From positions 5,258-42,231 of the forward strand of contig PMYN01000119.1 of NCBI GenBank assembly GCA_003171215.1: a stretch of DNA of 36,974 bases. Reading direction: 5' to 3'. Positions 18,639 through 29,813 of the stretch are shown here, piece by piece. How positions within the stretch are numbered: the first letter of the stretch is position 1; every line of letters starts with the position of its first letter. The notes below the pieces were generated by a model that had not been told where the DNA came from, did not search any database, and worked only from the letters and a program-made list of their open reading frames with translations. The position numbers and the translations under genes were made by a program. Source of the stretch: Gemmatimonadota bacterium. Its GTDB lineage: Bacteria; Gemmatimonadota; Gemmatimonadetes; Gemmatimonadales; Gemmatimonadaceae.

Positions 18639-18849
18639 AATCGACCCGATGCGGAATGCGGAAGAGGAATGGGGACGCGGGGTCGAGAGATGAGACGTGA
18701 GTAGAGATGAGACGTGAGTTCGGATACGGAATGCGAAAAGGGCGCGTCCGCGAAAGGTCGCGCCCTTCTCATCTCTCCCCGCTCACTCGCCACTCCCGTC
18801 TACACCCCGCATCCCGCATTCCTCTTCCGCACTCCGCATCGGGTCGAAT
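18639..18849. repeat. Long mosaic inverted repeat with central hairpin
   Basis: The outer arms 18639-18675 and 18813-18849 pair over about 37 nt with only a few mismatches; the arm contains TCGACCCGATGCGG and GCGGAAGAGGAATG. Inside are AGAGATGAG (18703-18711) matched by CTCATCTCT (18768-18776) and a central 9-nt stem hairpin. A further copy of the CCCCGCATCCCGCAT motif lies outside the right arm at 18870-18884. The whole could fold into one long stem. Confidence 0.75.
18736..18767 (-). terminator. Probable terminator of the carbonic anhydrase operon
   Basis: Arms AAGGGCGCG (18738-18746) and CGCGCCCTT (18759-18767) form a perfect 9-nt stem with a 12-nt loop. Read on the minus strand, the stem is followed by a short T run (TTTT, 18739-18736). 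It lies 122 nt past the carbonic anhydrase stop, at the centre of the mosaic inverted repeat. Confidence 0.6.
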
Positions 18850-18889
18850 CTCCCCACTCCTGTCTCCACCCCGCATCCCGCATCCGTCC

Positions 18890-19384
18890 TTATCGGTGCC
18901 GCGGAAACTCGCCGGCCCGATGCCGCTGCTGCATCTCCACGTACGAAAGGTGCCCGTTCGCGAGCCGGGCGCGCTGCTCGGGGTTCAGCGTCCTCACCAC
19001 CTTGCCCGGAACGCCGAGCACCAGGCTGTCGGGCGGAATCACGGTGCCTTCCGATACCACGGCGCCGGCGCCGATCAGGCTCCCCCGCCCCACGACGACC
19101 TTGTTCAGCACCACCGCGCCCATCCCGATCAGCACATCGTCCTGCACGAGCGCGCCGTGCACGATCGCCCTGTGCCCGATCGTCACGCGCTTGCCGATGA
19201 TGCACGGGATTCCTTCCTCGCAGTGCAGCACCGCTCCATCCTGCACGTTGCTGTCCTCGCCGACCTCGATGCGATCAACGTCGCCGCGCAGCACCGCGGT
19301 GGGCCAGACGCTCGCGCGCGCACCGAGGTGCACGTCGCCGATGACTACCGCGGTCTCATGTATGAACGCCGTCGGATCTATCAT
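18890..19384 (-). CDS. Gamma-class carbonic anhydrase family protein
   Basis: A protein of 164 residues with left-handed beta-helix hexapeptide repeats along most of its length (VVIGDVHLGARASVWPTAVL, LIGMGAVVLNKVVVG). The three zinc-binding histidines are conserved with correct spacing: His54 in GAVLHCEEG, His71 and His76 in TIGHRAIVHG. Members form trimers with metal sites between subunits; some hydrate carbon dioxide, others, like PaaY or YrdA relatives, act on CoA thioesters or have no clear activity. It is cytoplasmic, with no signal. ATG 19384 is the only reasonable in-frame start although no ribosome site is seen. It follows the barrel-protease gene by 71 nt on the same strand and may share its transcript. 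Confidence 0.9.
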   Translation of the reverse strand: MIDPTAFIHETAVVIGDVHLGARASVWPTAVLRGDVDRIEVGEDSNVQDGAVLHCEEGIPCIIGKRVTIGHRAIVHGALVQDDVLIGMGAVVLNKVVVGRGSLIGAGAVVSEGTVIPPDSLVLGVPGKVVRTLNPEQRARLANGHLSYVEMQQRHRAGEFPRHR

Positions 19385-19455
19385 GAAGGTGTTGTTGAAA
19401 ATCTGACCATGGAAAACTGACGACCGAAAACCGTTGACTCGTTCTTCGCGGCCGG

Positions 19456-22434
19456 TCAAAACGCGAGACCCAGCGCGAAGTACACGACGACGTTCCCTCC
19501 CCCAAAATACTGACGCCCCGCCAACGGCGTCGCCATGCCGAAACGAAACGTGTACGGCACGTCGTACTCGAACGCGGTATCGAGATGCAGCTCGGCACCC
19601 GCGCTCGCCATCCAGTCGTGCGGCGTCCCGTCGGGGCAGAGCACGGACGCCGTGAGCCCGTACGGACACCACGCGCTCGCCGCGTCGGCGAACACGATGG
19701 CGCTCACACGCTGCAGGAACACCGGGAGCATCTTCAGTCCCGCCGCCGGCACGGCGATCGGCGCGCGATACTCGAGGTTCGCCCCGAGCGCGCGCGTCCC
19801 CTGCTGCACTCCGGCGGGAAACCCGCGGACAAAAAATGTTCGCTGCGGATCGCCGAGCGTGACGCCGGGCGCGATGCTCAGCGTCGATCCGCTGATACCG
19901 CCCGCCTTGAGTTCGTCGGTGGCCTTCTCGTCTTCCCAGCCGGCCGCGACCCGAAATGCCAGCACGTGGTGCGCGAACCCCGGCAAGTCGAGCGACTTGA
20001 ATGCCGACGCCACACCGATCACGCTCGTGCTTCGCGTGGCCGTCGGATCGTCCGCCAGCCAGCGCTGCCTCGCCGACATGGCAAGCTGTATTCCGTCCTC
20101 CGGCGAGATCGCGAGAGCCGGCCGGCGCGCATTGCTCCATCCCGCGTTCACGAAGAAGGCAGGATACGCGTACACCGTCGTGAATCCCGTGTCGAGCTTC
20201 GCAATCAAGGACCGCGGCTCGGTTCGGTAATCCTGCCACTCCGTCTCCACGCCCACCGAGAGGTACGCGTTCGACGTGACCCGCGGCCGCAAACCCGTGA
20301 GCGCGACGTCGACGATCCTGCGCCGGCGCGCAATCGTGCCGGCGGGGATCTTCGTTCCGGCCGAATTCGTGCCGACGATGGTCCCATGCTCCCAGTCCTC
20401 CTGCGTCGTCACGCCGAGCACCGGATTGCCGAACCCGGCGTACTGGTACGAGAAGTTCCAGTTCGGCTCCTGGTGACGCGGCTCGTACGTCAGCTGCAGT
20501 TCGTAGTCGTGACGGCCGATTACGTCGCTTCCACTCGTAAGGAAGCCGAACATCGGGCGGCGGTCGTCGCTCTGCTCGAGCGCGGGAAGCCAGTAGCGCG
20601 GCAGCATCGACCGAAACGGCGAGTACGATCGCGCCGGCGCGCTGACCGTGACGCTCGTGTCGCGCCGCGACTTCGCCAGCACACTGGTGGAATCCGCCGC
20701 GGGAAAGGCTCCCTGCGCCGGAACGAGCGCCACGTGGAACCCGTCGCCCCTGTAATGCAGCGTCGCGAGCTGCGTGCCGTCGGGACTCGGCTCGTTCTCG
20801 AACAGCCCCGTCGCGGATTCCGCGATGCGCACGAGCGAACCGTCTGAGACGGTCGCGCGATAAAGCGCCGACCGCCCGCTGCGATCGCTCGTGAAATAGA
20901 TCATGCGATCGTCCGCGGCCCAGCTCGGCGCGTTGTTCACGGCGTGCGCGTGCCCGACCGTCTTGATCACGCGGCCGGCGGCGTCGAGAATCACGATCTC
21001 GGTCTCTGCGCCATGCGTCCATCGCGTCGCCGCGATGCGCGTGCCGTCGTGCGACCACCGCGGCTCCGACCAGACTGTGTCGGGGCTCGAACTCGTCAGC
21101 GGAAATATCTCGACCGAGGCGCCCGACACTCTCACGTGCACGAGCCGGTCCGCGCCCGGCGTCACCTGCACGGCGACGACGTCAACGTCGCCCGAGCTCC
21201 GGTCCCGCGCCGGGCCTGCCGGCATCGCGTCCGGCTGCATGAGGCGCGCGCCGTTCGTCAGCCGCCGTGTCTTTCCATCCTTCTCGAGGTAGAGATCGTT
21301 GCGGAGCGTGTACGGATCGACGAAATCCGCTTCGGCAAACACGCGCGCGCCGTTCTTCAGCGGTGACGTGATGTCGAGCGTCTTCCGCACGGCGAGAAGC
21401 CTTGGCTGGCCGCCCGTCGTCGCCACCTCACGCAGCGCGGGAAGCGAACGACCGTCGTCGTTGGCGTACGCGATGTGACCCGGATCGATCCATCGAAGAC
21501 GCTCCGCGGTCCATCCATGACCGGTGATGTCGCGAATGGGCGTGCTCTTCGCGGCGAGCGAGAACGCGTTGCGGCGGATGGAGTCGGTCCACACGCGCCA
21601 CGCGTTGTCGAACGACACGCCGAATCCGCGCTTCGCGTTCGCGTTGAGCAGAAAGGGAATCGTGCGCCCCGCGCTCACGTCCACGAAGTCGCGCATCGTC
21701 GCGGGCCCCTGCGTGCGCGCGACGAAGTCCATCAGGAGCGATCCGTACGCGTACGCCACTTGTCCGAGCGGATAGCTCAGGGTCGACGCCGACAGCGCGT
21801 TCAGCGCGGGCGTGACGCTGTCGAGCGCCTGCGCGCGCACGACCATCGCGTGGTCGGTGCCGACGATGCGGCCCGAGCCGGTGAGCCGCGACTCGTAGTA
21901 GACGGCAATCCCCTCGTCGAGCCAACTCGGCGTATACAGGTTCGGGAAGAGGAACGGGTTGCGGCCGAGCACGTATTGCGCCGCACGCCACCAGCCGGCC
22001 GTGCGGTCGAGATGGAAGATGTGGGTGAGCTCGTGCGTCACGACGAGGTCGATCCAGTCGTCGAGAAAACTCAGCGACGTCGCGTCGACCGTCGGGCGCG
22101 CGTAGATGACGATGCGATTCGTCGGGAAGACCGTCGCGTACCCGTTCGAGACGTCGAGATTGTCGCCGATCGTGAGATCGATCGGACCGCGCGGTTCATG
22201 CAGTTCCTTCGCGAGGCGGCCGTACGCGCGCTCGATGCTGCCGGCGGCGCGGCGCGCGACCGGCTCGAGTCCCGGCGCGAAGTTGATGTGAAAATGTTCG
22301 GTGGCGATCGTCCGCCAGTGCAGGTCGGGCGCGACCTGCGCGTGCGAAGCGGACGCGACGAAGACCGTGCAGAACAGGATCGCGTACAGCGCGCGCACCG
22401 CGAGCGCCGGCCAGCGGCGGAGAAGGACCGTCAC
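19456..22434 (-). CDS. Peptidase-MA-like protease fused to TolB-like propeller and Omp85-like barrel
   Basis: A protein of 992 residues. A signal peptide ends near SASHAQ (residue 32). The N-terminal domain has a gluzincin site: HELTH (His134, Glu135, His138) with Glu174 in WLDEGIAVYYE as the third ligand, as in the peptidase-MA-like families. From about 300 to 610 are WD40/TolB-like repeats (EPRWSHDGTRIAATRW, PSWAADDRMIYFTSDRSG, NEPSPDGTQLATLHY). The last about 380 residues look like an outer-membrane barrel, with the VRGF motif at 869-872 as in the L6 loop of Omp85 proteins and a terminal strand VVYFALGLAF ending in Phe. So a protease is probably held at the outer membrane. GTG 22434 overlaps the amidase stop by 4 nt. 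Substrates are unknown. Confidence 0.85.
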   Translation of the reverse strand: MTVLLRRWPALAVRALYAILFCTVFVASASHAQVAPDLHWRTIATEHFHINFAPGLEPVARRAAGSIERAYGRLAKELHEPRGPIDLTIGDNLDVSNGYATVFPTNRIVIYARPTVDATSLSFLDDWIDLVVTHELTHIFHLDRTAGWWRAAQYVLGRNPFLFPNLYTPSWLDEGIAVYYESRLTGSGRIVGTDHAMVVRAQALDSVTPALNALSASTLSYPLGQVAYAYGSLLMDFVARTQGPATMRDFVDVSAGRTIPFLLNANAKRGFGVSFDNAWRVWTDSIRRNAFSLAAKSTPIRDITGHGWTAERLRWIDPGHIAYANDDGRSLPALREVATTGGQPRLLAVRKTLDITSPLKNGARVFAEADFVDPYTLRNDLYLEKDGKTRRLTNGARLMQPDAMPAGPARDRSSGDVDVVAVQVTPGADRLVHVRVSGASVEIFPLTSSSPDTVWSEPRWSHDGTRIAATRWTHGAETEIVILDAAGRVIKTVGHAHAVNNAPSWAADDRMIYFTSDRSGRSALYRATVSDGSLVRIAESATGLFENEPSPDGTQLATLHYRGDGFHVALVPAQGAFPAADSTSVLAKSRRDTSVTVSAPARSYSPFRSMLPRYWLPALEQSDDRRPMFGFLTSGSDVIGRHDYELQLTYEPRHQEPNWNFSYQYAGFGNPVLGVTTQEDWEHGTIVGTNSAGTKIPAGTIARRRRIVDVALTGLRPRVTSNAYLSVGVETEWQDYRTEPRSLIAKLDTGFTTVYAYPAFFVNAGWSNARRPALAISPEDGIQLAMSARQRWLADDPTATRSTSVIGVASAFKSLDLPGFAHHVLAFRVAAGWEDEKATDELKAGGISGSTLSIAPGVTLGDPQRTFFVRGFPAGVQQGTRALGANLEYRAPIAVPAAGLKMLPVFLQRVSAIVFADAASAWCPYGLTASVLCPDGTPHDWMASAGAELHLDTAFEYDVPYTFRFGMATPLAGRQYFGGGNVVVYFALGLAF

Positions 22435-24317
22435 TGCCTGGCCGCGAACGAGCGGAAGTATTCTTCGAGGCCGTCGACGATTCCCGCGGCGTATCGTTTC
22501 TGGAAACTCTCGTCGCGAAGCGCCGCTTCCTGCTCAGGGACGATCAGGAACGCTCCCTCGCAGAGAATCGCCGGCATCCAGCTCTGCCGCACGACCGCGA
22601 GGTTGTCGTAGTTGATGCCCATATCGGGGAGCCCGATCCGGCGCACGAGCCCGCGCTGCACGGCGCGTGCGAGCGGTTCGGCCTGATCGAAGAAGAAGTA
22701 GGTGTTGGTGCCGTTTCTCGTGCGATACGGATTGACGCCGTCGGGATATGCGTTGAGATGAACGCTGACGAATGCTTCCGCGCTTGCGCGGCGGGCCGAG
22801 ATGGGGCGGTCGCCGAGCGGAACGGGGGCGCGCGTGGTGCGCGTCATGATGACCGTGGCGCCCCTGGCCTCGAGCATGGCGCGCAGCTGCTGTGCGACCG
22901 CGAGCACCGCGTCGCCCTCGTACAATCCGGTCGGGCCGGTCGAGCCGATCGGCGGATGTCCGGGATCGACGGCTATCACGCGGCCCGCGAGCGGGCGCGC
23001 TGCGTCGACGGTCGGCGCGTGCCGCACGCGCAGCACGAACGCTCCGCGATCCCACAGTGCGAGCCAGCCGAACGCCTGCTGGCGGAGGTGCACCGTGAAG
23101 CGAACGCGGTCTGACGACGCTTGTTCCCAGGTCACGTCGCGAACGGTGGGATCGTTCGTGGCGAAGTTCACGATGTCGACGTTGGAGACTGTACCGTAGA
23201 GGGTCAGGATGAGCGCATCCCCATTTACCTCTACCTGATAGGCCGGCTTCTCCGTCACCGGAATGCGGAGGTCGGTGAATTGCTCGTTGGAGACCACCCG
23301 CGAGTTGGACGCCGTGCGCCGCGGACGCGAGGCAGCCGGGTCGACGAATTGGACGGCCTTCTGGTCGACCCATGCCTCGAGCTGCGCGTCGAGCCGGACG
23401 CGGTACGAAGTTCCGCGCATTCCGGTGAGTTCCAGGACGGTGCCCGGAAAAAGGAGCCACTTGTACGTGCCGTTGGGCGTCGGGCGCAGGATGCTCACCT
23501 GGTCGGTGTCGCTGGCCGCATCGACATCGGCGTTCAGCAGCGAGACATAGCGGCTGGGCGCCGCGTCCATCGCCACGACCGCGGCCGTCTGAACGGTGAC
23601 CGAATCGCGACCGCGGCGCACGACGATGGTTCCGGCGTGCGCGAGTTCGCGCGCATTCACATCCGTGCTCCATGTGACGCCCGCACCGTGGATCAGCGGA
23701 CGCGAAGTTCCATCCCCCTCTTGCAGCAAGACGTTCGCGTTCGCAGGCGCCCGGACCGAGACGCGCACGCGTTCGTCGCCGCGCAGTCCGACCGTTCCCG
23801 ATGGTGTCACGCTGCCCGGGTCGACCGCGAGAGGTCCGGTGTCGGGGAGCGGCATGGGAAGAGGTCGGAGCGAAACCGGAACCGTCGCGTCCACGCTGAA
23901 CTCTCCCTTCACCGCGCGCAGCTCATATCGGGGAGCGTCGCCCGACGGCACCGGCAACCAGGCGAGAAACGCACCGTTAGGCAGGACCGGGACCTCGAAT
24001 CCGTCGATCATCAGGTGCGCCGCGCCGGAGCCGGTGGATCCGAAAATGAAGTTCGAGTCGCGAACGGTCAGTACCTGCTTAGGAGCCGGGTATACGACAC
24101 GTAGATTCAGTGGACCATCCACGGTCGGAATGGGCGGCAGCGAGGGAGCGGTCACCGGGACGTCCGTGGTTGCCGATCGAGCCGGCGCGCCGGCAGGGGC
24201 GGCGGCTGGCGGGACGGGGGCGGCAGCCGGGGGAGGAGCGAGCACGGGCTCCGGCGCCCGCGAACAGGCAACCAGAACTACGAGCGCCGTGGCTCGACAA
24301 AGTGGTGCCAGTCGCAT
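22431..24317 (-). CDS. N-acetylmuramoyl-L-alanine amidase, lipoprotein (Amidase_3)
   Basis: A protein of 628 residues that would cut the amide bond between MurNAc and the stem peptide. The N-terminus is a lipoprotein signal with lipobox LVAC, so Cys18 is lipidated and the enzyme anchored to a membrane. A Pro/Ala-rich linker (20-60) follows, then beta-rich domains of unclear identity, including an SH3-like part (about 285-325) and an AMIN-like part (about 345-430). The Amidase_3 core is at about 445-625 with the zinc ligands His454 in AVDPGHPP, Glu467 in LYEGDAV and His520 in FVSVHLNA, plus catalytic Glu587 in LCEGAF. It is the first gene of an operon with the barrel protease, overlapping it by 4 nt (GTGA). 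Both act in the envelope. A -10-like TATAGT lies just before its ATG. Confidence 0.93.
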   Translation of the reverse strand: MRLAPLCRATALVVLVACSRAPEPVLAPPPAAAPVPPAAAPAGAPARSATTDVPVTAPSLPPIPTVDGPLNLRVVYPAPKQVLTVRDSNFIFGSTGSGAAHLMIDGFEVPVLPNGAFLAWLPVPSGDAPRYELRAVKGEFSVDATVPVSLRPLPMPLPDTGPLAVDPGSVTPSGTVGLRGDERVRVSVRAPANANVLLQEGDGTSRPLIHGAGVTWSTDVNARELAHAGTIVVRRGRDSVTVQTAAVVAMDAAPSRYVSLLNADVDAASDTDQVSILRPTPNGTYKWLLFPGTVLELTGMRGTSYRVRLDAQLEAWVDQKAVQFVDPAASRPRRTASNSRVVSNEQFTDLRIPVTEKPAYQVEVNGDALILTLYGTVSNVDIVNFATNDPTVRDVTWEQASSDRVRFTVHLRQQAFGWLALWDRGAFVLRVRHAPTVDAARPLAGRVIAVDPGHPPIGSTGPTGLYEGDAVLAVAQQLRAMLEARGATVIMTRTTRAPVPLGDRPISARRASAEAFVSVHLNAYPDGVNPYRTRNGTNTYFFFDQAEPLARAVQRGLVRRIGLPDMGINYDNLAVVRQSWMPAILCEGAFLIVPEQEAALRDESFQKRYAAGIVDGLEEYFRSFAARQ

Positions 24318-24331: not shown

Positions 24332-24369
24332 GTGGTGGCGTTCGACTGGCCGCTACCCGAACCCCGGTC

Positions 24370-24375
24370 TATATT
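24370..24375 (+). promoter_or_regulatory. Candidate -10 box of the FHA/kinase operon
   Basis: TATATT on the + strand lies 64 nt before GTG 24440, in the divergent gap shared with the amidase gene. The matching -35 region (TGGCCG with a 17-nt gap) is weak, so the call rests on the -10 box and its location. Confidence 0.35.
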
Positions 24376-24398
24376 CGCCCCGCTCAGGACAAAATGAC

Positions 24399-24422
24399 CA
24401 TCCCGCGCCGCGTCGCGGGATG
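24399..24422 (+). promoter_or_regulatory. Leader hairpin just before the FHA gene ribosome site
   Basis: Arms CATCCCGCG (24399-24407) and CGCGGGATG (24414-24422) pair perfectly over 9 nt with a 6-nt loop. The hairpin ends 5 nt before the GGAGA ribosome site (24428-24432). It may modulate translation or protect the messenger; as a DNA palindrome it could also bind a regulator. No T run follows, so it is not a terminator. Confidence 0.5.
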
Positions 24423-24439
24423 CTATCGGAGATGATCGC

Positions 24440-25444
24440 GTGAATCGCTGCGGCTTCTGTGGCCGTGAGAATGATGAGCAGTCCAAGTTCTGCATCGACT
24501 GCGGCAAGCCCGTGGTCAAGGGCGGGGCTCGTGTCATTTCCGTGCCCGCGATGCTCAAGCCGTCCGGCGCGCAGGTCGAGCGTCCGGCCGGTTCCGAGCC
24601 CGTCCACGCCTCGAAGGGAATTCCCGATACCCGCGTCTCGTCCGCCGCGGCTCCGAAGGGAGGGATGGTGAAAGCCTGTGCAAGCTGTGGAAAGGCGGTC
24701 GATTCCTCGCTGCCGTTCTGCCCGCACTGCGGCACACGGGTCGACGGTGCGCCCACGAAACGCAGCAGCACCGCGACCTTCACCGCCCGTGGCACCGGAA
24801 CGGGGCCGAAGCTCTCGCTGCTCGACGAAGCGGGCGAGGTGAAGAAGTCGTTCACACTCGATCGCGGTGAAGCCACGTTCGGCCGCAGCGAAGGCGACAT
24901 TCGTTTTCCGGAAGACGTGTTCCTGAGTCCGGTTCACGCGCAGATCTCGATGCGTGACGGCCTGCTCCTCGTCCGCGACCTCGGCTCTCGCAACGGCACG
25001 TGGGTCTTCACCGACGGACCGTACCGCCTGCAGGACGGCGACACGATCCTCATCGGCTCGCAGCTGATTCGGTTCAGGCGGCTCGGCTATCCAGGCCCTC
25101 ACCCGCCGGAAGCAGACCAGACGCGCCGCCTCGGATCGTTCACGCCGAGCGCCGACATCGCGGTGCTCGCGCAGCTGCGCGCCGACGGCAGCGCGCGCGA
25201 TACGATGCACCTTTCGCCCGCGCGCAGCGTGAAGATCGGCCGCGACCAGGGCGACTGGGTGTTTCCGTACGACCAGACCATGAGCGGCAAGCACGCCGAA
25301 GTTCGCAGCGAAGACCTCGAGTTCATCGTGCTCGACGACGGGAGCCGCAACGGCATCGCGGTCGCGGTGCGAGGCGAGAAACCGGTGAAGCCCGGCCAGC
25401 GCTTCCTGATCGGCGACCAGACACTGCGCGTGGAGAGCGTGTGA
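24440..25444 (+). CDS. Zinc-ribbon protein with two FHA domains
   Basis: A protein of 334 residues. Two zinc ribbons are visible: Cys4, Cys7, Cys18, Cys21 and Cys80, Cys83, Cys94, Cys97. Then come two FHA domains, about 125-215 (GRSEGDIRF, LSPVHAQI, LGSRNGTWV) and 240-332 (GRDQGDWVF, SGKHAEV, DGSRNGIAV). FHA domains bind phosphothreonine peptides, so this is likely a substrate or adaptor of the kinase encoded next. There is no membrane segment, so it should be cytoplasmic. GTG 24440 has GGAGA 7 nt upstream. The stop overlaps the kinase start as GTGA, implying coupled translation and similar amounts of both proteins. The direct phosphopeptide partner is inferred. Confidence 0.88.
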   Translation: MNRCGFCGRENDEQSKFCIDCGKPVVKGGARVISVPAMLKPSGAQVERPAGSEPVHASKGIPDTRVSSAAAPKGGMVKACASCGKAVDSSLPFCPHCGTRVDGAPTKRSSTATFTARGTGTGPKLSLLDEAGEVKKSFTLDRGEATFGRSEGDIRFPEDVFLSPVHAQISMRDGLLLVRDLGSRNGTWVFTDGPYRLQDGDTILIGSQLIRFRRLGYPGPHPPEADQTRRLGSFTPSADIAVLAQLRADGSARDTMHLSPARSVKIGRDQGDWVFPYDQTMSGKHAEVRSEDLEFIVLDDGSRNGIAVAVRGEKPVKPGQRFLIGDQTLRVESV

Positions 25445-27099
25445 GCGACCAGAAAGTCTGTCCGACGTGCGGCACCGAGTATCCGCTGTCGGAGCGGTTC
25501 TGCCCTCGGGATGGAACGGCCCTGCGCAGCTCGAACGCGCAGGGCGACCTGATCGGATCGATCGTCGCCGAGCGCTATCACATCCTCAAGAAGCTCGGCG
25601 AGGGTGGGATGGGCACGGTGTATCTCGCCGAGCACGTGAAGATGGGACGGAAGGCCGCGTTGAAGGTCATGAATCCCGGGATGAATTCCGATCCCGACGC
25701 GATCGCGCGGTTCAACAGGGAGGCCGCGAACGCGAGCCGGCTCAATCATCCGAACGTCTGCGGCATCTATGATTTCGGTGAGACGCCCGAGGGGCTGATC
25801 TACCTCGCGATGGAGTTCATCGAGGGCGAATCGCTGACGAGCCTCATCGAGAAGAACGGGTTCCTGCCGGCGCCGCGCGCGGCGTCGATCATCCATCAGG
25901 CGGCGGACGCCCTGGCGGTGGCCCACGACTACGGGATCGTGCATCGCGACTTGAAGCCGGACAACATCATGATCGCAAAGGGCCGCGACGGCAGCGACAT
26001 GGTGAAGGTGGTGGACTTCGGCATCGCCAAGGCGAGCTCGAGCGACGCGCAGAAAGTGACGAAGACGGGGCTGGTGGTGGGCACTCCCGAGTACATGAGT
26101 CCAGAGCAGCTCGCGGGCGACAAGCTCGACGGCCGCAGCGACATCTATTCGCTCGGGCTCGTGGCCTTCAACTGCCTGACCGGCCAGCTGCCGTTCCAGA
26201 GCAACTCGGCGCAGGAAGCGATGATCATGCGGCTCACCGACCAGCCGAAGACGCTGGCCGAGATGAAGCCCGATATCGACTGGCCGCCGGAGTTGCAGGC
26301 CGTCATGGACAAGGTGCTCGCGCGCGACGCGGACGAGCGGTATCAGAAGTCGGCGGAGTTCGGCCGCGACATCGCGAAGGCGGTGGAGAACATGCCGGCG
26401 GCGGTCGCGGCGGCGGCGGGGACGATGGTGATGGGCGCGGCTGCCGCGGACGTTCCGAAGACGCGGATGGCGTCGAAGGGTGGGGCGACGGCGAAGATCG
26501 AGGCGGCCGCGCCTGTTCCCGATGCGGCGGCGCCGGCGAAGAAGAGTCCGGTGATGATGATTGTTGCGGCGGTGGTGGTGCTCGCGGGGATCGGGGGCGG
26601 GGTGATGTTCATGAAGAGGAATGGAGGCGCCGGAGCACCGCCGACGAAAGCCGAGGTGCCGGCTGCGGGGACTCCCGCGCCGGTAGGGGATCAGTCGAAG
26701 GCCTCGGCGCCGCAGAATGACACGAAGAAGGCGGATCCGAAGGCGCCGGTAACGATGATGGGGAAACCGGCGGTGACCGCGCCTGCGACCAATCCCCCGG
26801 CAGGTGCGGCGGCTCCCGCGGTCAGCGCAACGGAGACGATCGCCAAGTGGCAAAAGATCGTGAATTCGGATCCGAGTGCCACGGATGCTACCAATGCCAT
26901 TGAGGCGATCAATCCATTGCTCGAGAAACTCACAGGCCAGGAACGCAGTATTGCTCTATACGTGCAGATGGTGGCGTACGTGCGGCTGGACGACGACGCG
27001 CAGGTTTGCAGAATCTCAAAAGCAATTCTCGCAGGGAATCCCGACGCGAGTAGAGCGGAAGGCGCGAAGGGAGCGCAGCAGGGCCGAAACTGCAAGTGA
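25441..27099 (+). CDS. Zinc-ribbon Ser/Thr protein kinase with one membrane segment
   Basis: A protein of 552 residues. An N-terminal Cys motif CPTCGTEYPLSERFCPRDG (7-25, lacking the usual fourth Cys) looks like a degenerate zinc ribbon related to those of the upstream FHA protein. The kinase domain covers about 45-310: glycine loop GEGGMGTVY, Lys75 in AALKVM, catalytic Asp170 in IVHRDLKPDN, metal-binding Asp192 in VDFG and GTPEYMSPE. An Ala/Pro-rich linker follows. The membrane helix lies at about 370-391, then an Ala/Pro/Lys-rich stalk and an extracytoplasmic domain with a TPR-like helical pattern (about 475-552). It should phosphorylate Ser/Thr in the cytoplasm, possibly in response to an outside cue. 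GTG 25441 follows from the overlap with the previous stop; the longer frame upstream runs antiphase through the FHA gene. Confidence 0.93.
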   Translation: MSDQKVCPTCGTEYPLSERFCPRDGTALRSSNAQGDLIGSIVAERYHILKKLGEGGMGTVYLAEHVKMGRKAALKVMNPGMNSDPDAIARFNREAANASRLNHPNVCGIYDFGETPEGLIYLAMEFIEGESLTSLIEKNGFLPAPRAASIIHQAADALAVAHDYGIVHRDLKPDNIMIAKGRDGSDMVKVVDFGIAKASSSDAQKVTKTGLVVGTPEYMSPEQLAGDKLDGRSDIYSLGLVAFNCLTGQLPFQSNSAQEAMIMRLTDQPKTLAEMKPDIDWPPELQAVMDKVLARDADERYQKSAEFGRDIAKAVENMPAAVAAAAGTMVMGAAAADVPKTRMASKGGATAKIEAAAPVPDAAAPAKKSPVMMIVAAVVVLAGIGGGVMFMKRNGGAGAPPTKAEVPAAGTPAPVGDQSKASAPQNDTKKADPKAPVTMMGKPAVTAPATNPPAGAAAPAVSATETIAKWQKIVNSDPSATDATNAIEAINPLLEKLTGQERSIALYVQMVAYVRLDDDAQVCRISKAILAGNPDASRAEGAKGAQQGRNCK

Positions 27100-27213
27100 T
27101 CGCTCTTGTGATCCACATCACCAGCAAATAGAAGCTCTGCTCCTCGCGCACCCTCCGACTGCCGCGTTAGGTTCCACTGTCCAATAATCAGCCCGCCACG
27201 TAACCTCGCCCTC

Positions 27214-28365
27214 GTGACCGCCAACAGCACCCCCAATTCCGGCGAGATCATCGTCCACGTCTTCGGCAGGACCGACGTGGGGCGCACGCGCGAGCACAAC
27301 GAAGATTCGTTCGTCGTCGCGGACCTCAACACCATGAATGCGACGCTCCAGCCCGAGGTGCGCACACACCATCCGGGCAAGATGGGATCGCTCTTCATGG
27401 TCGCCGATGGCATGGGCGGCGCCGCCGCAGGCGAAATCGCGAGCGCGATGGCCACGGAAGTCGTGCTTCAGGAGCTCGATGCGCGCTGGCGGCACGCCGC
27501 GGAACACGACTCCGAGACGTTCGCGCGCGCCATCAAGGCCGCCACCGAAACCGCCAACGCCCGCATTCATCGCTACGCCACCGAACATCCCGAGAATCGC
27601 GGGATGGGCACCACCGCCACGATCGCCGGCCTGCTCGCCGACACGCTCTATCTCGCGCAGGTCGGCGACAGCCGCGCATACCTCGTGCGCAACGGCGTCG
27701 CCCAGCAGATCACGAAAGACCAGTCGCTCATGCAGAAGCTCGTCGAGGCGGGCGAGCTCACGGCCGAGGAAGCGGAGGTCAGCGAGCGTCGCAACATCAT
27801 TCTCCAGGCGCTCGGCCCCGAGCCGGTGGTGAAGGTCGATCTCACACACCAGCAGGTGCGGCGCGACGACGTGCTCGTGATCTGCAGCGACGGCCTCTCG
27901 GGCCAGATCCGCACCGCCGACATCGCGCGCGTGGTCGAGGAAGAGCCCGACCTCGTCAACGTCTGCAAGCAGCTGATCGATCTCGCGAACGAGGCCGGCG
28001 GCCCCGACAACATCACGGTGATCGCCGCGCGCTTCGACGGCGCGGGACTCAGCGCGGCATCGGCCGGCGAAGGCGTGGGACATCAGCCGTACACCAGCGA
28101 GTCCGAATCGCGCACGACGATGCCGGTCAACCTGAGCGCGGTGCAGGCGCTGGAAGATGCAGCCGACAGCGCATCGAAGACCGACCGTACGGTCACGCTG
28201 CCGCGCCGCTCGCCGGCCGCCTCGAACTCGCCGACCGCGCCGATGGAGCCCCGCGCGCGCGCGCCGCTCCCCGAAGGACGCGTTCCGAAGAGCCTGCTGC
28301 GCCTGATCTTCGGCGCGATCGCACTCATCATCATCGGCTGGCTCTACTACAAGTTCCGCAGCTGA
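27214..28365 (+). CDS. PP2C-type Ser/Thr phosphatase with C-terminal membrane anchor
   Basis: A protein of 383 residues that should reverse the action of the neighbouring kinase. PP2C motifs are complete: GRTREHNEDSF with Asp31, MVADGMGG with Asp65, GMGTTATIAGLL, GDSRAYLVRNG, SDGLSG and GGPDNITVIAARF. These Asp residues bind two Mn or Mg ions. Residues about 270-350 form a Ser/Pro-rich linker, then a single membrane helix at about 355-378 (LLRLIFGAIALIIIGWLYY) with a short charged tail, so the catalytic part faces the cytoplasm. GTG 27214 has no clear ribosome site. A 114-nt gap separates it from the kinase; a -10-like AATAAT at 27183-27188 may provide its own promoter, without a clear -35. 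Its stop overlaps the next start as TGATG. Confidence 0.93.
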   Translation: MTANSTPNSGEIIVHVFGRTDVGRTREHNEDSFVVADLNTMNATLQPEVRTHHPGKMGSLFMVADGMGGAAAGEIASAMATEVVLQELDARWRHAAEHDSETFARAIKAATETANARIHRYATEHPENRGMGTTATIAGLLADTLYLAQVGDSRAYLVRNGVAQQITKDQSLMQKLVEAGELTAEEAEVSERRNIILQALGPEPVVKVDLTHQQVRRDDVLVICSDGLSGQIRTADIARVVEEEPDLVNVCKQLIDLANEAGGPDNITVIAARFDGAGLSAASAGEGVGHQPYTSESESRTTMPVNLSAVQALEDAADSASKTDRTVTLPRRSPAASNSPTAPMEPRARAPLPEGRVPKSLLRLIFGAIALIIIGWLYYKFRS

Positions 28366-29813
28366 TGCGCGTCGAGCTGCGCATCACCAGCGGGTCGCGC
28401 GCTGGCCAGCGCGAGCTGTTCGACAAGTCGGTCATCAGCATCGGCCGCCACCCACTCAACGACCTGCGCTTCGATCCGGAGCGTGATCCCGACGCCTCGT
28501 CGCGCCACGCGGAGATCCGCATCCTCGGCGACAAGGCGACGCTGCACGATCTCAACAGCACGAACGGCACGTTCGTGAACGGCCAGCGCATTGCCGGCGA
28601 ACGCGCACTGTTCGACGGCGATCTCATGTCGTTCGGACGCGAAGGGCCGGCGGTGGAGTTCCATACGGTGACCGCCGTGGCCGCGACCGACCGCACACGC
28701 GCTTCCGGCGCCGCCGTCGCCGCGACGCCAGCCGCCGTGCCATCCGCTCCGTCCGCTCCTGCCGCGTCAGCCGCGCCGCCGCGCCGCGACACCGGCGCGC
28801 GAATCGCGGACGCGGTTCACGCGCAGACCGGCACGCTCCGCAAGATGGTGATCGGGCTGGGCGTGCTCGTCGTGGTCGGCGCTGGAACGGCGTACTGGAT
28901 CGGCCACCGCGACTCCGCGCAGGCGCAGGCCCGCGTGGACGAGCTGCTCAAGCGCAACGATTCCCTGAGCGCGATGTTCGAGAAGACGGTCGGCTCCATG
29001 AAGGGACGCGTCGCGGGACTCGACTCGGCGCTCGCCGCGTCGAGGAAGGAAACGGACCAGATCCGCTCGCGCATCAAGGGCGAGATGCAAAAGGGCGCCG
29101 ACGCGAACGTCGAGGACCTTTCGGCGCGACTCGACAAGGCCGAGCGGCGGCAGCACGCGCTCGTGTCGGCGGGCAACGTGGATTACGAGTCCATCGCCGC
29201 GAAGAACGGGCCCGCGATCGTGTTCATCGCGGTCGAGGAGGCAGGCGGCGCGTACATGAGCGGCTCGGGCTTCAACGTGTCGCCGTCAGGCCTGATCGTC
29301 ACCAACCGGCACGTCGTGCAGGACGCGCAGGGCCATCCGGCGAAGCGCGTGAAGGTGATCTTCGACGGCACCAGCGGCGCATGGAAGTCGGCTCATGTGT
29401 TGAAGGTCAGTACCACCGACGAGCTGGCCTTCATTAAGATCGATGACCCGGGCACCTATCCGGTGGTCGCCGGTGTCGCGAAGCAGCCGTCCGTGCGCGT
29501 GGGCACGCCTGTCGCACTGCTGGGCTACCCGCTCGGCACCAGCACCGCGGGAATGGGCGGCGACATCAACAAGATCCGGCCCAAGAGCACGCTCGGGCTC
29601 GGCACCGTGAGCAAGTTGCTGGCCGACACGCTGCAGTTCGACGCGTTCGCCGCACCGGGATCGAGCGGAAGCGCGGTGTTCGACGCGCGCGGGTTCGTGG
29701 TCGGCGTGCTCTTCGGCGGACAGACCGAGAGCAACGGCCGCATCGTGTACGCAGTGCCGAGCGACAAGCTCGCCGCGCAGATGCCGCCGGAAGGAACCGC
29801 GATCGTCCGCTAG
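28365..29813 (+). CDS. Single-pass FHA domain/trypsin-like serine protease
   Basis: A protein of 482 residues. An N-terminal FHA domain (about 1-100: IGRHPLNDLRF, SSRHAEIRI, LNSTNGTFVNG) is followed by an Ala/Pro linker and one membrane helix at 161-180. Residues about 183-268 are a predicted coiled coil. The C-terminal half is a trypsin/HtrA-like protease with His316 in VTNRHVV, Asp352 in STTDELAFIKID and Ser434 in PGSSGSAVF. No PDZ domain is present. With an N-in orientation, FHA lies in the cytoplasm and the protease outside. Phosphopeptide binding inside could therefore control or recruit a protease outside. ATG 28365 shares one base with the phosphatase stop. The control model is inference; the domains are clear. 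It converges on the nitroreductase gene with 2 nt between stops. Confidence 0.92.
   Translation: MRVELRITSGSRAGQRELFDKSVISIGRHPLNDLRFDPERDPDASSRHAEIRILGDKATLHDLNSTNGTFVNGQRIAGERALFDGDLMSFGREGPAVEFHTVTAVAATDRTRASGAAVAATPAAVPSAPSAPAASAAPPRRDTGARIADAVHAQTGTLRKMVIGLGVLVVVGAGTAYWIGHRDSAQAQARVDELLKRNDSLSAMFEKTVGSMKGRVAGLDSALAASRKETDQIRSRIKGEMQKGADANVEDLSARLDKAERRQHALVSAGNVDYESIAAKNGPAIVFIAVEEAGGAYMSGSGFNVSPSGLIVTNRHVVQDAQGHPAKRVKVIFDGTSGAWKSAHVLKVSTTDELAFIKIDDPGTYPVVAGVAKQPSVRVGTPVALLGYPLGTSTAGMGGDINKIRPKSTLGLGTVSKLLADTLQFDAFAAPGSSGSAVFDARGFVVGVLFGGQTESNGRIVYAVPSDKLAAQMPPEGTAIVR

Follow-up and report, generated by a model that had tools for sequence, protein, structure and literature searches.

A putative barrel-anchored zinc protease of Gemmatimonadota: gluzincin-type domain, TolB-like propeller and Omp85-type barrel predicted in one chain

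What does an Omp85-type barrel do when a metallopeptidase-like domain and a propeller stand where POTRA domains would be expected? This question is raised by a gene of a Gemmatimonadota bacterium which we studied within a stretch of 36,974 nucleotides, called the window in the following (GenBank assembly GCA_003171215.1, contig PMYN01000119.1, positions 5,258–42,231). The first-pass annotation of the window had proposed at 19456–22434 a protein of 992 residues in which an HELTH motif with a downstream glutamate, TolB-like repeats and a VRGF-bearing barrel are combined, and whose gene overlaps an amidase gene by 4 nucleotides. The open reading frame is found there, on the minus strand and with a GTG start, and the overlap consists of the stop–start sequence GTGA at 22434–22431. 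All elements are in a single chain, namely HELTH at residues 134–138, E174 and VRGF at residues 869–872, and the predicted folds match. The nearest named relative of the protein (locus L031) is 93% identical.

The domain order and the architecture are well supported, the folds themselves being predicted. The AlphaFold2 model of the full chain, based on 63 sequences, consists of three domains with a predicted local distance difference test score (pLDDT) of 89.9 and a predicted template modelling score (pTM) of 0.88. In the protein itself Pfam finds PD40 over the cut-off with an expectation value (E) of 1.7e-8, and when 23 relatives were scanned singly at E up to 1, PD40 was matched in 18/23 and Peptidase_MA_2 in 5/23. 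No POTRA family was matched at E up to 1 in the protein or listed for any of the 23 relatives, while the BamA of the same genome (L111), which served as a control, scores 1.1e-17. PF00149, presumably the calcineurin-like metallophosphoesterase family, is likewise missing, at E up to 1, from the matches of the protein and from those listed for these relatives. Thus, given the folds and the missing POTRA match, the earlier proposal that a protease and a propeller take the place of POTRA domains is supported as to a zinc-protease-like domain and a TolB-like propeller. A chance match of short motifs can be ruled out by the invariant residues in the relatives together with the predicted folds. Of the three domains the zincin is the most strongly conserved (mean 0.62, compared with 0.50 each for the propeller and the barrel), which would suit an enzyme. 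Residues 1–32, the predicted signal peptide, have a pLDDT below 50 in the full-chain model, and the Q33 that follows is invariant (63/63 alignment rows).

The N-terminal domain appears to be a gluzincin-type, zinc-protease-like domain. As the list of VIA-align matches for the whole model did not cover the zincin, we folded residues 33–300 alone (pLDDT 90.5, pTM 0.89). With this model Foldseek matched M1 aminopeptidases and leukotriene A4 hydrolase, and VIA-align gave the M30 peptidase Lugdulysin with Z 16.8 (234 aligned residues, 4.1 Å) and M1 enzymes with Z of about 14 to 15.6, at identities of 8–16% in these structural alignments. A search of PDB sequences with the zincin profile by hmmsearch yielded no match at E up to 10. 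The assignment therefore relies on the fold and on the alignment with the M1 peptidases of the same genome. Aligned with four of these, the zincin profile reaches E 4.3e-5 (probability 69%) and places HELTH opposite HExxH, SWLDEGIAVYYE opposite WLSEGFATYFE and AYAYG opposite Y-x-K-G. E174 is thus expected to be the third zinc ligand, and the zinc site which had been assumed for HELTH and the glutamate is supported by its alignment with that of the M1 peptidases. Y228 of AYAYG is a candidate transition-state tyrosine, by analogy with M1 enzymes. In sum of fold and alignments, HExxH and a downstream glutamate within a predicted gluzincin fold, as in clan MA gluzincins, are present.

The expected zinc and catalytic residues do not vary. 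In the alignment A1, which was built without motif patterns and has 23 rows (7 of 30 source loci were omitted as fragments or near-duplicates), H134, E135, H138 and E174 are invariant in 23/23 rows. HExxH is found in 28 of the 30 loci of this unfiltered search; the other two (L013 and L028) are fragments which start after the motif. H134, E135 and H138 are also invariant in 63/63 rows of the larger alignment, as are E174, Y228 and G231. For the filtered alignments A2 and A3, 80 loci were chosen by patterns with HEL[TA]H or EG[LI]A..E, and 62 of them were used. Among the 18 omitted loci, 11 are located at contig ends, miss the start or have a length outside 900–1100 residues, L100 has a shifted C-terminus, and L071, L072, L073, L091, L096 and L108 carry HEMAH or HEIVH and were lost because the filter required HEL. 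The invariance of L136 (the leucine of HELTH) in A2 is therefore an artefact of the filter.

The middle domain is predicted to be a TolB-like propeller. A phmmer search against the PDB matched TolB with residues 458–571 (E 1.6e-12), a profile search reached 6.4e-24 for TolB, and VIA-align superimposed the whole model on TolB with Z 24.8 (235 aligned residues, 2.5 Å, residues 298–553), other TolB entries reaching residue 577. The model for complete TolB, NCBIfam TIGR02800, scores 72.1 bits and hence below its cut-off of 343.15; the propeller is the only part which the protein has in common with TolB.

For the C-terminal domain the first PDB match of Foldseek is the Deinococcus BamA 8xnb (E 1.8e-9, template modelling score 0.63 when normalized by target length); TolB and further BamA entries come next in the list. 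VIA-align superimposed residues 611–992 on the same BamA structure with Z 24.2 (323 aligned residues, 4.4 Å). The strand list of the model counts to 16 strands by either of two readings, so that the closed C-terminal barrel claimed by the first-pass annotation is also predicted here. VRGF is located in the position of loop 6 (L6), and R870 and G871 are invariant in both the 23-row and the 63-row alignment; residues 851–861 of this loop have low model confidence. According to one study, the folding of L6 into the barrel, where it contacts a motif of the barrel wall, is a hallmark of the Omp85 superfamily (PMC9355242). D917 of the FADAA motif, conserved in 90% or more of the 63-row alignment, is a candidate partner of R870. 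Both a 16-strand BamA-like fold and a VRG[F/Y] motif in L6 are thus found in model and sequence. By sequence alone two results count against the barrel. The Pfam family Omp85 (PF01103) has no match in the protein itself, and an hhalign comparison of the 63-sequence profile with the BamA of the same genome is weak (48 columns, probability 1.9%). At E up to 1, PF01103 is matched in 7/23 relatives, the best value being 3.4e-4, and it passes the cut-off in some relatives of the type II family (see below), namely L135, L166, L174 and L175. We base the assignment on the structure, on the VRGF and other motif residues and on these Pfam matches in relatives. The same genome encodes further Omp85-type proteins, L112 and L115, with 555 and 605 residues as read and without a Pfam POTRA match; the first scores over and the second below the Omp85 cut-off.

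Table 1. Location of the gene, its predicted domains and motifs and the overlapping amidase gene (positions in the window)
Feature	Position	Strand	Basis
Whole gene: zincin, TolB-like propeller, Omp85 barrel; 992 residues, GTG start	19456..22434	-	Open reading frame and predicted fold
Predicted signal peptide, residues 1-32, SHA then Q33	22339..22434	-	Sequence; putative cleavage site
Gluzincin-type metallopeptidase domain (predicted), residues 33-296	21547..22338	-	Fold matches to Lugdulysin and M1 aminopeptidases
HELTH, residues 134-138; predicted zinc ligands H134 and H138, catalytic E135	22021..22035	-	Invariance; alignment with M1 HExxH
E174 in SWLDEGIAVYYE (WLDEG), predicted third zinc ligand	21913..21915	-	Invariance; alignment with M1 WLSEGFATYFE
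Y228 in AYAYG, candidate transition-state tyrosine	21751..21753	-	AYAYG opposite M1 Y-x-K-G
TolB-like beta-propeller (predicted), about residues 298-577	20704..21543	-	PD40; PDB TolB matches; VIA-align
Omp85-type barrel (predicted), about residues 611-992	19459..20604	-	Foldseek; VIA-align; model
VRGF, residues 869-872, long loop ahead of strand 12 (L6 position)	19819..19830	-	Sequence; model
FADAA, residues 915-919, strand after the return strand of L6; candidate R870 partner D917	19678..19692	-	Conservation
C-terminal strand ending in F992, beta-signal-like	19459..19485	-	F992 invariant in 63/63 rows
Upstream N-acetylmuramoyl-L-alanine amidase (Amidase_3, residues 448-618)	22431..24317	-	Pfam; sequence

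The protein is not a singularity of its contig. Relatives at E up to 1e-30 are present in 160/249 Gemmatimonadota genomes and 66/112 genera. In addition, the same genome encodes a second protein (G000:C33, L133:3350-6934, minus strand) with HEMVH, WYMEGMAEY, five PD40 stretches and VRGY, behind whose gene SPOR-domain genes are located. The family of this paralogue, here called type II, has matches at E up to 1e-30 in 118/121 Gemmatimonadota genomes, and all type II open reading frames which were read keep HExxH (a motif script had missed 3 of 45 type II loci, L144, L172 and L173, but the motif is present in all three). The profiles of type I, the family of the protein in the window, and type II align over 862 columns with E 1.5e-52. 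Hence homologues with the same domain order, as looked for, exist as a full-length paralogue family, and the three-domain design predates the split of the two types, which are separated with a support of 100 in a FastTree tree of 60 sequences. Type II also extends to a second phylum, the one to which G268 belongs (the record of locus L105 from that genome bears the title Acidobacteria). There 67/80 genomes were matched at E up to 1e-15, many in the propeller only; as counted from the listed matches, 39/80 genomes have a match which starts in the zincin and mostly runs into the propeller. A wider spread by way of L103 (titled Gammaproteobacteria) and L086 (Candidatus Kuenenia) was set aside, as their coordinates are the same as those of the Gemmatimonadota genomes G244 and G238. 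The record names of these two loci are probably wrong.

How could such a protein act? We suggest, with a probability of about one half, that it is a periplasm-facing zinc protease which is tethered to the outer membrane and serves envelope or cell-wall maintenance. The signal peptide would direct export, after which a 16-strand Omp85-type barrel with the VRGF-bearing L6 would anchor the protein in the outer membrane. The propeller and the N-terminal gluzincin would stay in the periplasm beneath the outer membrane and near the peptidoglycan. We place them there because Omp85 N-termini are periplasmic and because in PlpD, the one Omp85 protein with an attached enzyme that has been studied, the enzyme domain was detected nowhere but in the periplasm (PMC11116518). 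Docked on the propeller, a protein of the periplasm or envelope would be cleaved at the zinc site; such proteolysis may help to keep the outer membrane and the cell wall in step, and the co-translated amidase might act at the same location.

A role at the cell wall is preferred because both paralogues adjoin peptidoglycan genes, and these are of different kinds. For type I the neighbors were counted in the 80 pattern-selected loci: of the 65 loci having at least 2.5 kb of upstream sequence, 54 carry the amidase gene immediately upstream in the same orientation. In all 20 Gemmatimonadota genomes with type II that were checked, the type II gene is directly followed by one or two genes for SPOR-domain proteins. 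Peptidoglycan that amidases have denuded is the binding target of SPOR domains (PMC7822825). These observations suggest a tie to the cell wall by way of synteny among related genomes.

Several points weigh against this interpretation. The amidase gene is not upstream in 11/65 of the loci just mentioned, and SPOR genes adjoin type II in neither of two genomes of the second phylum. The synteny with SPOR genes is partly inherited among related genomes and therefore the 20 of 20 cases are not 20 independent events. Downstream, two conserved neighbors do not fit an envelope operon: a ribonucleotide reductase gene, which 41 of the 46 loci with at least 3.5 kb carry in the same orientation, and a frame at 18893–19453 (minus strand) with hexapeptide repeats, named gamma-carbonic-anhydrase-like from reading its sequence, which in the window sits between the zincin gene and the ribonucleotide reductase. 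Furthermore, the Pfam match to Peptidase_MA_2 (PF13485) in the protein itself is sub-threshold (E 4.9e-4, 20.4 bits for a cut-off of 32.4), and activity, zinc binding and location are all predictions. Since the link to the amidase is common and not universal and the other syntenic neighbors have no obvious envelope role, a part of the protein in remodelling the envelope, or in export combined with processing, at which the first-pass annotation had hinted, is not established.

Among the alternatives, the nearest competitor is a quality-control role in barrel assembly, modeled on BepA at the beta-barrel assembly machinery (BAM), which we consider unlikely yet worth some weight. Here the barrel would insert proteins or stand beside BAM and the zincin would clear stalled outer-membrane proteins, so that the functions of BamA, BamB and BepA were united in one chain. 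This would account for the BamA-like barrel found by Foldseek and VIA-align, and the near universality of type II is what would be expected of a housekeeping part. A fusion resembling BamA and BamB has also been the published guess for the WD40-Omp85 proteins (PMC4104836), and BepA is a periplasmic zinc peptidase which, at the BAM complex, either promotes LptD or degrades it (PMC8423444). On the contrary, a canonical POTRA-bearing BamA is encoded in the same genome, and assembly therefore needs no second factor. The neighboring genes are cell-wall genes and not BAM genes, and Pfam M48, the family of BepA, has no match at E up to 1 in the protein and is matched in one of the 23 relatives at E 0.21.

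Export through the barrel with built-in processing, in which the zincin cuts the passing substrates, appears improbable to us. TpsB-type Omp85 proteins do translocate proteins and the domain order would be compatible with export and processing, but the usual substrate binder, a POTRA domain, is missing at E up to 1 and the zincin is predicted to be a folded periplasmic domain rather than a plug. In addition, the neighbors are the amidase, the carbonic-anhydrase-like gene and the ribonucleotide reductase, and no recurrent candidate exoprotein was noticed among them. Still less probable is a display of zincin and propeller on the cell surface for nutrition or defense, for which about 580 residues of folded protein would have to cross a 16-strand barrel; such a topology was once proposed for the patatin-bearing PlpD (as cited in PMC11116518), whose enzyme domain was then located to the periplasm only. 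Least probable of all is that the zincin is a pseudo-peptidase with a binding or structural role in a scaffold protein, as its predicted activity and Pfam peptidase scores below the cut-offs would allow, since the expected zinc and catalytic residues are invariant in type I and every type II open reading frame read retains HExxH.

Returning to the tethered periplasmic protease, a much broader form of this proposal can be drawn, which we regard as doubtful, less credible than quality control and more so than export with processing. The propeller-bearing Omp85 proteins as a whole might be barrel-tethered zinc proteases, a hitherto unrecognized envelope system that is core to Gemmatimonadota and common with the second phylum, with one copy paired with an amidase and the other with SPOR proteins, which would couple cell-wall stripping to outer-membrane proteolysis, the barrel possibly feeding substrates to the zinc site. 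A conserved site of the zinc-protease kind on a barrel would extend the functions of Omp85 proteins to proteolysis. Those published Omp85 proteins whose function is known serve to assemble proteins or to move them (PMC11116518). In a phylum with little envelope biology, a near-universal paralogue adjoining peptidoglycan genes turns the question of how outer membrane and cell wall are kept in step in bacteria that lack well-studied systems into a testable one.

Some observations on the surroundings of the gene remain. An open reading frame on the plus strand (18707–19420) was considered as a conserved neighbor and rejected, as it is very likely the antisense of the hexapeptide gene: the minus-strand frame of the latter scores 204 bits on average in 55 other loci and the plus-strand frame 107 bits in 54 loci. 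Similarly, the minus-strand frame 24353–25294 is probably the antisense of a gene for an FHA/zinc-ribbon protein (24440–25444, plus strand). This gene is part of a cluster (24440–29813, plus strand) that lies upstream of the amidase gene in opposite orientation, is conserved and codes for the zinc-ribbon/FHA protein, a Ser/Thr kinase, a PP2C phosphatase and an FHA-trypsin-like protease; since the listed start of the kinase (25000) overlaps the FHA gene, the kinase probably begins only after 25444. Ahead of its catalytic domain, the amidase has a stretch of about 400 residues without a Pfam match, and a lipobox-like LVAC is located near its N-terminus. Lipoboxes were counted in 26/54 amidase homologues by a crude filter that failed on close relatives of the amidase in the window, and this count is unused for our claims.

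Known systems share parts of this design. Ten subfamilies of Omp85/TpsB proteins have been defined, among them the WD40-Omp85 proteins with a TolB-like propeller and no POTRA domain and the 'Metallo' proteins, which carry PF00149 (Heinz and Lithgow 2014, PMC4104836). The non-POTRA subfamilies are largely unstudied. In common with the WD40-Omp85 proteins the present protein has a TolB-like propeller ahead of an Omp85 barrel; in the accessible text the propeller alone is described and no protease domain appears in the description of the group, whereas here a predicted gluzincin precedes the propeller. Like the 'Metallo' proteins it would join a metal-dependent enzyme to an Omp85 barrel, but their domain is PF00149, for which we found no match. 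PlpD likewise joins an enzyme domain, which is periplasmic, to an Omp85 barrel; it has a lipase domain and one POTRA domain instead of a zinc protease and a propeller (PMC11116518). BepA with BAM is a case of a zinc peptidase at a BamA-like barrel in the periplasm, as proposed here, yet it is a separate soluble M48 enzyme (PMC8423444), and the peptidase in the window is of another type and covalently tethered. The M30 peptidase Lugdulysin and the M1 peptidases have the fold and the zinc-site motif of the N-terminal domain; they are free enzymes of low identity, whereas the present zincin would be anchored by a barrel. A literature search for the combination of zincin, propeller and Omp85 barrel found nothing on it, most subscription journals being outside its scope. 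Thus, since WD40-Omp85 proteins were described in 2014 (PMC4104836), the propeller with the barrel is already known, and it is the added zincin which appears to be new and which possibly corrects the picture of the known subfamily.

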